A stretch of 64,000 bases of DNA, from assembly GCA_900318865.1 (NCBI GenBank), contig ONMF01000002.1, forward strand, positions 62,001 to 126,000, read 5' to 3'. This document shows positions 45,582 through 50,303 of the stretch, one piece after another. The DNA is from an uncultured Prevotellaceae bacterium (GTDB taxonomy: Bacteria; Bacteroidota; Bacteroidia; Bacteroidales; Muribaculaceae). Numbering within the stretch: position 1 is the first letter of the stretch; every line of letters begins with the position of its first letter. The notes under the pieces were generated by a model. That model ran no database searches and was not told where the DNA came from. It saw only the letters and a program-made list of their open reading frames with translations. A program made the translations under genes and the position numbers.

Positions 45582-45693
45582 ACGCCGAGCGCACTCCCAC
45601 CACCCGCCGTCCAAAAAACGCGGCATTGCCGGAGGTGACGGCACCGGCGTATTGATTGTGCTTCTCCGAGGAACAATAGATGAAACCGTTATC

Positions 45694-45733
45694 AGCCCCA
45701 TGTTTGCCGCCGGCGGCGCCGAAACATGGGGCT
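45694..45733 (+). terminator. Long hairpin downstream of maeB
   Basis: AGCCCCATGTTT (45694-45705) pairs with AAACATGGGGCT (45722-45733); the loop contains GCCGCC/GGCGGC that can extend the stem. The T-tract is weak (TTTGG). A second small palindrome, ATGCGTC-TGC-GACGCAT, follows at about 45744-45760. The site also carries one copy of the 14-bp motif repeated inversely at 48645-48658. Confidence 0.5.
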
Positions 45734-45773
45734 TTGGCATATCATGCGTCTGCGACGCATCACCATCCCGGCT

Positions 45774-46034
45774 CCCCCTCTAAGGTAGAGGGGGTGGCAC
45801 GGAGGGCCGGGGGTGTGTGCCACACGGCGACACAAGCCCACACACGGGCTCACACACTCCTCCGCCCTGACGGGCACCTCCCCCAACTTAGGGGAGGAAC
45901 TGAACTCCCCCTCTAAGGTAGAGGGGGTGGCCCGCAGGGCCGGGGGCGTGTGCCACACGGCGACGCAAGCCCCCACACGGGCTCACATACTCTTCCGCCC
46001 TTCGGGCACCTCGCCGCTTAGGGGGGCTCCCCTT
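45774..46034 (-). repeat. Modular hairpin repeat, cluster 1 (two copies)
   Basis: Two head-to-tail copies starting at 45774 and 45907 (133-bp period). Each begins with CCCCCTCT-AAGGT-AGAGGGGG, then a GGCCGGGGG(T/C)GTGTGCCACACGGCGAC box, a variable middle, CACA(C/T)ACTC(C/T)TCCG, and a second hairpin of CCTCCCC/GGGGAGG type (clear at 45877-45897, degenerate in the second copy). The orientation is opposite to clusters 2 and 3. They fill the convergent gap between maeB and the C10 protease. Short frames inside are not credible genes. Confidence 0.8.
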
Positions 46035-46058
46035 TTAGTCTCACACGGTTACGGCGCC

Positions 46059-48527
46059 TCAGCGCACCACCACCTTGTGGGCCACACCGTCGGCCACCAC
46101 GACGTAGATGCCTGCGGCCAGATGCTGCTCGTGGGCCGTGCCCACCAGCGCGCCTGCCATGTTGTAGACGGCTACCCAGCGCGCGCCACTCACGGTGAGC
46201 AAGCCTCCGGCGGTTTTCACGGCTACGGCATCATTCGCGACGCTGCCGATGCCCGTGGCATCGTCGATAATCTCAAATGTGTAGCGGTCGCCCCAGAAGT
46301 AATAATGCTTGGGGTCCATCTTGCGCATGCACATCTCGTACACCACTCCGGGCACGCCTTCAAATGCCGAGGCGATGTTGACGGTGACGCTGCCGCCGGC
46401 TGGCACAGTCAGCATGTCGGTGTCGCCGGTGCTGAGCACCCTTTTGGTCTGCTCGTCCATAATCATGTAGGGCAGCGTGCCCACGTAGTCGCCCGTTCCG
46501 TTGTTGGCCACCACGGCACTGGCGGTAATCTTTCCATTGGGCATAAAGTAGGTGGTGGGTTTCAGGCCCGAAGTAACATCCAGATTGTAGTTGTCGCTTT
46601 CCACAACAGTAAGGGGATAGGCCTCGCTGATGATGTTCTCGGCGAAGTCACACACGTAAATATTGTACCGGCCCGGCTCATCGGGGGCGGTGAGCTCGGC
46701 TTTGGTCACCACATCGCCACCGGCGGCCACGCCGATGAGCTGGCCCTCGACAGGGTCGGTGTCAGTGCCGTCCTTGGCAATCATATAGCTTACCACACTG
46801 TAATAATCAGAGCCATTGTTGTGGATGGTGGCGGTCACGTTTATTTTCGACTGGGTGCCCACCCGCTCGGGATAATCAAAGCGGGTCACGGCCAGATGGT
46901 GATTGGTGGCGGGCTGTGAGAAGTACATCACGCCGCCTTTCACCTCGGCTTCCCAATAACCCGGTGAATAATTGCCATGGTTGTACTCCCTGAAGTCGTT
47001 GATGCCTACCTCGGGAATGGAGTAAAGCAGCCACAATTTGTACTGCCCGTCGGGCAACGTGGCCGAGGGGGTGTAAGTGATGGGATTCTGCGACAGGTCG
47101 GTTTCTTTGTAAGAATACGACCAGCCGATTAACCTCGTGCTGTAGAACGTGTTGGACCGAGCCCCCTCTTCGACGCTGTTTCCATCGTTATCGGTCAAAA
47201 AGAACCGGCTGTACATCGTCAGCGACGGCTGGTCGCTGCCTTCAAAATAGCCTTTTCCGGCCACCGAAATGCGTTCGATGAGCATGGGGACCGGCTCGCC
47301 CAGTTTCACCTCGTCAAGGCTGGGGCTGAAGCTTTCCACAAACACCTCCACCAGTTTTTCGGGATCGGGGCCGGGGCCTTCGGGATCGGGATAAATTCCC
47401 ACCACCATGTCCTGCGCGTTGTTGTAGCCGCCTTCAAAGGAGCCGATGCCCTGGTTGCGGGGGCTGAGCGCGGTAATCAAGAAGTAGCCGTTGCTTGAGT
47501 TGCCCCATCCCCAGTTGATGTGATAATAACCCTTGGCATCGCGACCGTCAATCACAAACGAATGGCCACCGGTCGGGGTGAAGCCGCCGTACAGCACGGG
47601 GCGACTGTTGTCCAGTTCCTCGTTGATGAGGTTTTCCCACTCGTTGATGCCCATGCTGGCGCGCCGGTAGTAATGCATGTTGCGATTGTAACCGAAGTAT
47701 TTGCGCAGGCCTTGCATCATGTAATAAGGGGCGGCTGTGCTCGTCGAGCCATATTGCATCCGTGCAGCCAGGCCGGTGTGATACATCAGTGTGCCCACCG
47801 CATCGCCCTGCACCTCGCTGTAGCCGGTTTTGTAGTAGTTAAGCATGTCGTCCCACTGGTAGGTGGTGCTTCCCAGGTCGGCACCCACCGTCTGCTTGGG
47901 GCCATTTTTCATTTCACATTCATAAGAGATAGTGCCTGTGCCATGGGCCGGGTACTTATAGTAGTACATGATTTGTGCGGCGGCTGTGGCCACGCAACCG
48001 GTGGCGGCGCGGTGGGTCTCCCCGTCATCGTCGGTGTAGAGGGGGCAGAATTTGTTGTATGGCTCGTCCTGGTCCCAGCCGGTAGTGAGCAGGGGCTTCA
48101 CCTCTTGGCCGCGGGGCGCACGGGCCGCAGCGGCAGGGGCCGGCGGTGTGCCGCGCAGGTAACGCATCTCCTGCGCATAGGTGTCGAGCATGGCACGCAT
48201 GCCGGCGGGCTGGTTAGCCGGGTCGAAGGTGCCCTCGTCGCTGTAGGCCAACACCGGGGTGGCGCGGTCATCGCCGGCCACAATCACATAGCCGCCGGCA
48301 GCGCCGCTGCTGAACACATAATAATCGGCCACCGATGCCCTGGGGGTGGATTTTGCCTCCAGCACGAGCGTGGGACGATCTACCTGGCCGTGGGCGGCAA
48401 TGCGCTGAGCACGAGTGTGCACAAGTTCTTGTGCAATGGCCTGGGCGCGCTCGGGGGTCACCGGAGCGGCCTGCAGCATAGCAGTGGCCTGCAGCATAGC
48501 AATCAAAGTGAAGAAAAATCGTTTCAT
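46059..48527 (-). CDS. C10 (streptopain-like) cysteine protease with C-terminal sorting domain
   Basis: 822 residues. The signal peptide (residues 1-20) contains a duplicated MLQATA/MLQA segment. A propeptide (about 21-130) resembles the SpeB/Spi domain (ADYYVFSSGAAGGYVIVAGDDR). The peptidase domain (about 140-375) has catalytic Cys178 in ATGCVATAAAQIMYY and His322 in GGHSFVIDGRD, followed by HINWGWG. After a Pro/Gly/Glu linker come beta-sandwich repeats, then a terminal ~65-residue domain (GLLTVSGARWVAVYNMAGALV...GIYVVVADGVAHKVVVR) like type A type IX-secretion sorting domains. Likely a secreted protease of host or dietary protein. Repeat clusters lie on both sides. Confidence 0.9.
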   Translation of the reverse strand: MKRFFFTLIAMLQATAMLQAAPVTPERAQAIAQELVHTRAQRIAAHGQVDRPTLVLEAKSTPRASVADYYVFSSGAAGGYVIVAGDDRATPVLAYSDEGTFDPANQPAGMRAMLDTYAQEMRYLRGTPPAPAAAARAPRGQEVKPLLTTGWDQDEPYNKFCPLYTDDDGETHRAATGCVATAAAQIMYYYKYPAHGTGTISYECEMKNGPKQTVGADLGSTTYQWDDMLNYYKTGYSEVQGDAVGTLMYHTGLAARMQYGSTSTAAPYYMMQGLRKYFGYNRNMHYYRRASMGINEWENLINEELDNSRPVLYGGFTPTGGHSFVIDGRDAKGYYHINWGWGNSSNGYFLITALSPRNQGIGSFEGGYNNAQDMVVGIYPDPEGPGPDPEKLVEVFVESFSPSLDEVKLGEPVPMLIERISVAGKGYFEGSDQPSLTMYSRFFLTDNDGNSVEEGARSNTFYSTRLIGWSYSYKETDLSQNPITYTPSATLPDGQYKLWLLYSIPEVGINDFREYNHGNYSPGYWEAEVKGGVMYFSQPATNHHLAVTRFDYPERVGTQSKINVTATIHNNGSDYYSVVSYMIAKDGTDTDPVEGQLIGVAAGGDVVTKAELTAPDEPGRYNIYVCDFAENIISEAYPLTVVESDNYNLDVTSGLKPTTYFMPNGKITASAVVANNGTGDYVGTLPYMIMDEQTKRVLSTGDTDMLTVPAGGSVTVNIASAFEGVPGVVYEMCMRKMDPKHYYFWGDRYTFEIIDDATGIGSVANDAVAVKTAGGLLTVSGARWVAVYNMAGALVGTAHEQHLAAGIYVVVADGVAHKVVVR

Positions 48528-48558
48528 CCTATTTGGGTTTAAAAAATACTTGATTATG

Positions 48559-48566
48559 CAAAGTTA
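48559..48566 (-). promoter_or_regulatory. Putative -7 element of the C10 protease gene
   Basis: Minus strand TAACTTTG, 32 bp before the ATG at 48527; matches TAnnTTTG. Confidence 0.55.
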
Positions 48567-48707
48567 ATCATTTTTTATGTCAATTTCGGTAGAGAACGTA
48601 CTTTTTCGGATAGATTTCTCAACGCGGATGACTCATGGCCGGAACATGTTTCGGCGCCCCAGGTGCCAGAAAAGTTGCACACGCAGCAATATCAGCGGCC
48701 CGGCAAT

Positions 48708-49089
48708 TCCTCCCCTATGTTAGGGGAAAGGATACGGGTAGGCGAGCTTTGCTCGGAAACCACGAAGTGCTCGCGACCGAACGGGAGCCCGAAGGGCAAG
48801 CGTAGCGCAGCAATGGTTGCGCAAAGCGACGGAGGAGTGTGTGAGCCCTGCACGGTGGCATCGTCGCCGCATGGCACACGCCCCCGGCCCGTTGGGCCAC
48901 CCCCTCTAACTTAGAGGGGGAACCTCAACTCCTCCCCTATGTTAGGGGAAAGGCTACGGGTAGGCGAGCTTTGCTCGGGAATGGTGGCGCGAAGCGACGG
49001 AGGAGTGTGTGATGACAGCATGGGTGCCAGCGTCGCCGCTTGGCACACGCCCCCGGCCCTGCGGGCCACACCCTCCACCTTAGAGGGGG
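48708..49089 (+). repeat. Modular hairpin repeat, cluster 2 (two copies)
   Basis: Copies at 48708-48920 and 48931-49089. Order: hairpin CCTCCCCTA.GTTAGGGGAAAGG, a GGTAGGCGAGCTTTGCTCGG insert, AAGCGACGGAGGAGTGTGTGA, a variable middle, GTCGCCGC.TGGCACACGCC plus CCCGGCCC, then hairpin CCCCCTCT-AACTT-AGAGGGGG (48900-48920). The first copy carries about 60 bp of extra sequence (48755-48815) with its own small inverted repeats, so the element varies by modules. It lies upstream of the C10 gene and downstream of the esterase gene. Confidence 0.8.
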
Positions 49090-49166
49090 ACCTGCCCGGC
49101 ACAGCGCCCGTCATCGCACGTTCCTCGAGGAGGCATTACCTTGCCTCAAGGCATCGCGGCTATCAA

Positions 49167-50060
49167 TTATTTGATGTATCGGCTGAAAAATTTCCACACC
49201 TCCTCACCAGTGTCGATGTCGTCGGTGTGCCAGCGGTGCCCGCCACCCACCACCTCGTAGAGCCACACGTCGCATCCCGTGGGGCTGCCCGTGTAGCGAT
49301 GTTTCACCACCGGATGCCCCGCCGCGCCCTGCAGGCTCTCCACGCGCTCGGTCTCCTCGTGCGTGCAGCGGTTGCGGGCCACCCAGTAGCCCACGGCCAC
49401 CGGCACAGGCAGATAGGCTCCCCAGCCGCCGGCATTGGTCAAGTCGCCCGTCCATTCCGACACGCGATCCTCGGTGCCGTGCACCTCCATCACGGGGAAG
49501 GGGCGCGGCGCCTCGAGCGTGCGGTACATCCACTCCATCGTCAGGCCGGCGATGGGAGCCACTGCTTTGAAGACGTTCTGCTTGCTGAGCGCCGTGAGGT
49601 AGCACATCTCGCCGCCGTTCGACACGCCGGTCATAAACGTGTTGTCTCGACTCAGCCCAAAGCGCTTCTGCACATGGCGCGCAATGCGGCACAGTGCTTT
49701 CACGTCGTCCACCTGCCAGCCTTGCTGAAAGGCATAGCCCACACTCCAGCTGTGCTGCCCCTTGGAATCTTTCAGCGCCAGCGGAATGACCACGGCAAAG
49801 TGATGGCGGTCGGCCGTGGTGACCATGGGATTCTCGCGCCAGATGCCGCCGCCGTAGCCACTGAGCACAAACACCGTGGGAGCGCCGGCCGGCAAGCCGT
49901 CGGGTAGATAGACATCGAAGTGGCGCACATGGCCGTCGACCTTAATGGAATCCTCTACAAACTCACCGGCATGGCACCACAGAGGGGCGAACAGCGTGAG
50001 CAACAGTGTGAGCACTGCCGCCCGCCGAATGATAAAACCGTTTCTCTTCACCTTCTTCAT
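49167..50060 (-). CDS. Secreted alpha/beta-hydrolase, PHB depolymerase/feruloyl esterase-like
   Basis: 297 residues with a signal peptide (basic stretch, then VLTLLLTLFAPLWCHA). The Esterase_PHB/LpqC-type fold is indicated by VYLPDGLPAGAPTVFVLSGYGGG, nucleophile elbow GVSNGG, HGTEDRVSEW (Asp region) and a C-terminal GGGHRW (His). Likely periplasmic or surface esterase acting on plant feruloyl or acetyl esters, but the substrate is a guess. ATG at 50060 is chosen over a TTG two codons upstream. The start is only 27 bp from repeat cluster 3, and no TAnnTTTG box is seen, so the repeat may have displaced or supplied the promoter. Confidence 0.85.
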   Translation of the reverse strand: MKKVKRNGFIIRRAAVLTLLLTLFAPLWCHAGEFVEDSIKVDGHVRHFDVYLPDGLPAGAPTVFVLSGYGGGIWRENPMVTTADRHHFAVVIPLALKDSKGQHSWSVGYAFQQGWQVDDVKALCRIARHVQKRFGLSRDNTFMTGVSNGGEMCYLTALSKQNVFKAVAPIAGLTMEWMYRTLEAPRPFPVMEVHGTEDRVSEWTGDLTNAGGWGAYLPVPVAVGYWVARNRCTHEETERVESLQGAAGHPVVKHRYTGSPTGCDVWLYEVVGGGHRWHTDDIDTGEEVWKFFSRYIK

Positions 50061-50087
50061 CTTCAATTTTTAGTTTTCGTCCATTGG

Positions 50088-50303
50088 TGGAGGAGTGTGT
50101 GAACCTGAGTGGGTGCCGTCGTCGCCGCTTGGCACACGCCCCCGGCCCTCCGGGCCACCCCCTCTAACTTAGAGGGGGATCTCAATTCCTCCCCTAAGCT
50201 AGGGGAGGTGGCGCGAAGCGACGGAGGAGTGTGTGAACCTGAGTGGGTGCCGTCGTCGCCGCTTGGCACACGCCCCCGGCCCTTCCCCACCCTCTTAGAG
50301 GGG
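50088..50303 (+). repeat. Modular hairpin repeat, cluster 3 (two copies)
   Basis: A first copy (50088-50178) lacks the left hairpin; the second (50188-50303) has it as CCTCCCCTA-AGC-TAGGGGAGG. Both share GGAGGAGTGTGTGAACCTGA, GTGGGTGCCGTCGTCGCCGC and TGGCACACGCCCCCGGCCC; the first ends with CCCCCTCT...AGAGGGGG and the second with a shortened version. The two variable middles are identical here, so this pair duplicated recently. Confidence 0.8.

Follow-up and report, generated by a model that had tools for sequence, protein, structure and literature searches.

The six repeats found in the analysed stretch of DNA (64,000 nucleotides, referred to as the window) are probably copies of a mobile element that is non-autonomous and has hairpin ends; its likeliest autonomous relative is a unit that has the same ends and carries a DUF559 gene. 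The copies were dispersed over the genome and their stems covaried. Their ends matched those of DUF559 units in relatives, where the element and DUF559 co-occurred and where units of this class were found in frame inside host genes. From these observations we infer that the DUF559 protein moved the elements, and by which route.

Architecture of the repeat unit and its copies in the window

All six copies were recovered in three gaps of the window, where a first-pass annotation had placed them as three clusters (Table 1), and the shared boxes and both terminal hairpins were present as claimed. The unit was ~125 nt long and read, in the 5' to 3' direction, as H1, s1, GGAGGAGTGTGTGA, a variable middle of about 25 nt, GGCACACGCCCCC, s2 and H2. 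The terminal hairpins were CCTCCCCTAAGTTAGGGGAGG (H1) and CCCCCTCTACCTTAGAGGGGG (H2), and the small hairpins were GTCGCGAAGCGAC, GCCCGAAGGGC or similar (s1) and GGCCCTGCGGGCC (s2). Either end was built of an end hairpin, TG, a small hairpin, a GG-rich box and GTGTG. The two ends were inverted homologues and the unit was therefore an imperfect palindrome with terminal inverted repeats of the MITE-like kind. Five exact CACACGCCCCCGGCC boxes were counted in the window, when about 7e-4 were expected from base composition, and the example copies folded 3.7 to 6.2 s.d. below shuffles.

Cluster 1 (copies 1 and 2) was located on the minus strand and clusters 2 (copies 3 and 4) and 3 (copies 5 and 6) on the plus strand, in agreement with the inversion described earlier. 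The proposed variation by whole modules was also confirmed: a long-arm module occurred twice in the window and 10 times in the other loci fetched from the genome. The left arm of copy 3 was such a long alternative, which contained several small hairpins (the GGGTAGGCGAGC... module) and extended to about position 48829. The middles of copies 5 and 6 (window 50089-50303) were identical, when the orthologous copies of the related genome G268 differed, and this identity is consistent with gene conversion between neighbours or a recent duplication. By Pfam, the genes next to the window copies encoded a C10 peptidase and, as a weak match, a Peptidase_S9/esterase-like hydrolase.

Table 1. Repeat copies in the window, an adjoining member of a second repeat family, and in-frame DUF559 units of the same class, not of the exact window family, in relatives
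Feature	Position or locus	Strand	Description
Copy 1	45774..45897	-	Complete; H2 45774-45794, H1 45877-45897, boxes between; R1 116.7 bits
Copy 2	45907..46026	-	H2 intact 45907-45927, H1 decayed; R1 86.3 bits
Copy 3	48709..48920	+	H1 start 48709, box 48831-48844, box 48873-48890, H2 48900-48920; R1 98.1 bits over 48810-48920
Copy 4	48931..49089	+	H1 start 48931, shorter long-arm module, boxes, H2 to 49089; R1 103.9 bits
Copy 5	50089..50178	+	Without H1/s1; R1 89.3 bits
Copy 6	50188..50303	+	H1 and s1 intact, H2 decayed/degenerate; R1 105.1 bits
Second palindromic repeat family member	45654..45763 (G000:C10:107654-107763)	+	Abuts cluster 1
DUF559 unit in frame	L072		valS
DUF559 unit in frame	L075		LegC-type aminotransferase
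DUF559 unit in frame	L076, L077		WbcJ-type reductase, same site in two genera
DUF559 unit in frame	L082		aroA, with extra tandem gene-less copies
DUF559 unit in frame	L083		ribD N-terminus
DUF559 unit in frame	L232		hsdM, Cyclobacterium
DUF559 unit in frame	L199, L200, L203, L209, L214		Large DNA-methylase-like protein, Pseudanabaena

Dispersal in the genome and occurrence in relatives

The surveyed source genome (G000) consisted of 2.51 Mb in 30 contigs and was 97% complete. A blastn search with one copy as the query returned 67 matches in this genome, and a covariance model returned 128, many of which were one palindrome counted on both strands. After reduction of the covariance-model matches, 71 distinct places in 45 clusters on many contigs were obtained, as for a MITE with many dispersed copies in one genome. 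An expansion centred on the protease and esterase genes, as suggested at first, was thus a local view. The dispersed copies were up to 96% identical and their flanks were unrelated. No element cluster was located inside a spanning ORF among the 44 testable clusters of the source genome, where in-frame insertion of the kind described for Rickettsia palindromic elements was accordingly absent.

The covariation of the stems far exceeded that of shuffles and slid controls. In an alignment of 25 copies, 32 cells in which both partners of a pair had changed were counted against 11 in shuffles. An alignment of 150 matches from all loci gave 681 double-change cells against 212, with 93.9% of cells paired; it leans towards structure because it was fitted to the model and included some elements on both strands. 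Compensatory changes on both sides were recorded for 30 of the 35 pairs.

The element was present in 35 of the 247 sampled genomes of the source's bacterial family, in 6 of 30 genera. The nearest relative found was G268, the esterase of which was 92% identical. Cluster 2 was missing from G268, and together with the dispersal of copies between unrelated flanks this absence bears out the MITE- or REP-like reading of the first-pass annotation. The empty site that it had suggested looking for was obtained only in this sense: the flanks were too diverged for a base-exact joining, and no base-exact empty site was found between the source genome and G268 in their diverged intergenic DNA. Cluster 3 was common to both genomes, with the same truncation (copy 5 without H1 and s1) and different middles.

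Further, 24 of 25 copies were edged by T on the left and A on the right, with 4-mers mostly of the AACT/AGTT type, and these edges suggest a fixed boundary. No consistent direct target-site duplication was observed among the 25 copies. The element pattern had no exact match in viral contigs, which contained three DUF559 loci.

DUF559 genes between matching hairpin ends

In relatives, small DUF559 (PF04480) genes were flanked by the same double-hairpin ends, which were thus common to the element and the DUF559-bearing units. The closest case was a 495-bp unit carrying DUF559 (L081, genome G160), the left end of which agreed with the source-genome consensus at 44 of 47 positions and the right end at about 42 of 46. 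When ranked by end similarity, a gene-less copy of the same genome was among the top 3 of 25 for 8 of 9 gene-bearing units; the ranking covered few genomes, and some top ranks were taken by other genomes. These matches extended to unusual ends, CTCTCCCTAAGGTAGGGAGAG in G116 and a long-loop hairpin in G046 being examples.

No DUF559 gene was found in the 97% complete assembly of the source genome, and 22 of the 35 element-positive genomes of the bacterial family were likewise without it. The element and DUF559 (E < 1e-10) occurred together in 13 genomes (p = 1.6e-8, uncorrected for phylogeny), a value that overstates independence, since the two may have been inherited together within genera, chiefly g1 and g6. 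When genus g1 was taken alone, no clear enrichment of DUF559 was seen.

To assess the breadth of the association, 80 loci with a DUF559 gene were taken from public genomes. At 57 of 79 loci the flanks were inverted to a degree that exceeded the 99th percentile obtained at shifted control positions. In a second flank test, 56 of 78 DUF559 genes had inverted ends, compared with 1 of 143 controls. The flanks carried C-rich hairpins on either side at 44 of 78 DUF559 loci and at 1 of 143 controls; a regular-expression count of module order around the genes was insensitive. DUF559 genes with such brackets occurred in Bacteroidota, Cyanobacteriota, Nitrospirota, Acidobacteriota, Kiritimatiellota and Pseudomonadota, and flanks that were alike by eye in Sinorhizobium, Azospirillum, Neisseria and at E. 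coli ycjD.

Two of these loci showed additional features. On S. meliloti pSymB (L153), double-hairpin repeats (CCCCTCACCCTAACCCTCTCCCC) enclosed the DUF559 gene, for which no empty-site record was found, and other rhizobial plasmids carried scattered short matches to these repeats. In E. coli, palindromic CCCTCTCCC repeats adjoined ycjD (DUF559), and the sapF-ycjD-fabI region (L151, L291-L294) was variable, most of it being present in 3334 of 5426 genomes. A clean empty site at ycjD was rejected, and ycjD was not a simple insertion, because an efflux operon followed sapF in the three exceptional genomes that were inspected.

Units of this class, which did not belong to the exact family of the window, were found in frame in several conserved genes of relatives (Table 1). 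Their hairpins were translated as peptides of the host proteins, e.g. SPSKIEGAGG, and comparison with insert-free orthologues indicated that host codons around the insert were preserved, a few being replaced. The Pseudanabaena host protein is DNA-methylase-like by reading of its sequence, as NCBIfam names only the DUF559 part. At one Pseudanabaena site, four loci had an in-frame gene-less element, which measured 108 nt in L203 and more in L199, and three loci were without it; comparison of this gene-less insert with the uninterrupted orthologues gave no clear target duplication.

All 11 aligned proteins matched DUF559. The profile search retrieved 3HRL at 5e-29 and, at 4e-4, the homing endonuclease I-Bth0305I (3R3P), and the predicted model of a relative (pLDDT 88) matched the folds of 3HRL, 3R3P and, more weakly, Vsr. 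Within the nuclease core, D, E-x-D-G and H were among the invariant residues. On these predictions, DUF559 is a putative single-domain PD-(D/E)XK nuclease of the Vsr/I-Bth0305I fold, and its dN/dS of about 0.09 to 0.24 indicates purifying selection.

Proposed dispersal and comparison with known repeats

We proposed that the element resembles REP/BIME or MITE repeats in kind and would have spread through intergenic DNA. Its autonomous relative would be a unit of ~500 bp with the same ends and a DUF559 gene inside. The nuclease would recognise the hairpin ends in trans and nick or cut the donor or target DNA, after which repair would insert a copy of the unit elsewhere, leaving no clear duplication of the target. 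The source genome would then hold descendants of the element, with the nuclease gene either lost or located outside the assembly.

A REP-type transposase, which the first-pass annotation had suggested looking for, was indeed encoded in the source genome as one RAYT (Y1_Tnp) gene (L032:2343-2771), and the evidence favours DUF559 nuclease as the partner instead. Half-elements of the studied family were located within about 420 bp of the RAYT gene, upstream only, so that the gene was not bracketed by the studied element. A second palindromic family, with hairpins GTGCCTCTCCGAGGAAC, CATGTTT...AAACATGGGG and TGCGTCTCCGACGCA, had copies on both sides; of its 26 matches genome-wide, 23 were within 250 bp of the studied family, against about 1.3% of the genome. 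Because the RAYT-flanking second family is so tightly interspersed with the studied one, the possibility was weighed that a single Y1 (HUH) transposase mobilises the studied family, possibly together with the second one as one mosaic, and it was judged unlikely. The association of the element with Y1_Tnp in the bacterial family was not clear (p = 0.19), and the element was not confined to RAYT-bearing genomes: 10 of 35 element-positive genomes, some at 92-99% completeness and some incomplete, had no Y1_Tnp match. The RAYT loci of the family (L101-L130) did have long inverted flanks in 23 of 30 cases, but these were of another sequence type. C-rich hairpins occurred on both sides of just 2 of the 30, and this hairpin type therefore goes with DUF559. 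No GTAG tag was seen at the H1 and H2 ends, and the GGGTAGGCGAGC string was limited to the optional long-arm module. RAYT is thus an unlikely partner, being present but weakly linked. The two copies directly downstream of it belonged to the second family, with which RAYT may form a REPtron in Bacteroidales.

It was also considered that DUF559 is a homing-type parasite of pre-existing palindromic repeats, which spread otherwise. This reading, which we regard as rather unlikely, was kept since at L202, L221 and L182 the gene was situated between two elements, with hairpins inside, and not within one element. It also agrees with the resemblance of DUF559 to I-Bth0305I and with the many element-positive genomes without the gene. 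However, hairpin-ended gene-bearing units were in frame in unrelated host genes, as expected if they moved whole, the ends of gene-bearing and gene-less units tended to match within genomes, and the association extended across several phyla. A family of structured regulatory RNAs or terminators, kept for an RNA-level function, appears quite improbable. The strong covariation and the absence of copies from ORFs would fit it, as would the overall ratio of G-T to A-C mismatches (89 to 40), expected if one RNA strand matters. This excess was nearly gone in H2 (17 to 14), however, the copies were modular, truncated and decayed, and their number was patchy among species. The RNA reading of the first-pass annotation, though possible, is superfluous, since its hairpins arise on either strand and the element matched no curated Rfam family. 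Local duplication only, to which the clustered copies and the identical middles of cluster 3 might point, was refuted by the genome search and by related copies in other genera; both the number of places and the compensatory changes identify a repeat family, and a purely local origin is practically excluded.

The preferred reading, an element served by a DUF559 nuclease, was compared with known systems. The REP/BIME repeats with RAYT (REPtrons) are likewise short, palindromic, intergenic, clustered and modular (PMC3733652), and here too a gene for a DNA-cutting enzyme was bracketed by repeats in some genomes and some copies were in frame in genes. The studied unit was larger (~125 nt), had two hairpins per end and was without the tag of the GTAG or CGTC super-families, and the enzyme linked to it is a predicted Vsr-fold PD-(D/E)XK nuclease, not an HUH transposase. 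The CGTC repeats lack a dedicated transposase according to the survey of Di Nocera 2013 (PMC3733652). Rickettsia palindromic elements, palindromes of about 100-150 bp, can enter genes in frame and be translated (PMC10969869). The size is similar here and in-frame insertion was seen for the DUF559 units of relatives; the intergenic position of the source-genome copies and the nuclease-bearing units of relatives set the studied element apart from that description. ERIC, NEMIS/Correia and RUP MITEs are also non-autonomous, imperfectly palindromic, intergenic and dispersed, but no consistent target-site duplication was seen among the copies of the studied element, and its candidate partner is unlike a DDE transposase. 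By profile and structure search, the protein shares its nuclease fold with I-Bth0305I (EDxHD/Vsr-like, PDB 3R3P) and with the solitary DUF559 proteins PDB 3HRL and Caulobacter VsrA (PMC12907096). In contrast to the EDxHD/Vsr-like homing endonucleases and solitary DUF559 proteins, the gene was bracketed here by double-hairpin ends, outside introns or inteins, and the same ends were also found on high-copy gene-less repeats.

The repeats of the window belong to a known kind, of which they form a new family. Palindromic repeats between genes are common among bacteria, some super-families being without a known enzyme, and DUF559 is labelled as of 'unknown function' in Pfam. The literature searched, outside the scope of which were most subscription journals and bioRxiv preprints, contained no link of DUF559 to mobile palindromic repeats, and within that scope the link appears undescribed. 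It is quite possible, and is put forward tentatively, that DUF559 double-hairpin units, together with their gene-less repeats, constitute a widespread class of mobile DNA in bacteria, whose movement would depend on a Vsr-type nuclease and require no DDE, HUH, serine or tyrosine recombinase, and which could lodge in frame in conserved proteins. The known fold of the candidate enzyme makes the question accessible to experiments with one small purified protein and an oligonucleotide that forms the hairpin. If true, DUF559 could be the missing enzyme of some orphan palindromic repeat families; a function would be suggested for this domain, and the recurrent 'SPSKIEGAGG'-type in-frame peptide inserts in conserved proteins would be explained.
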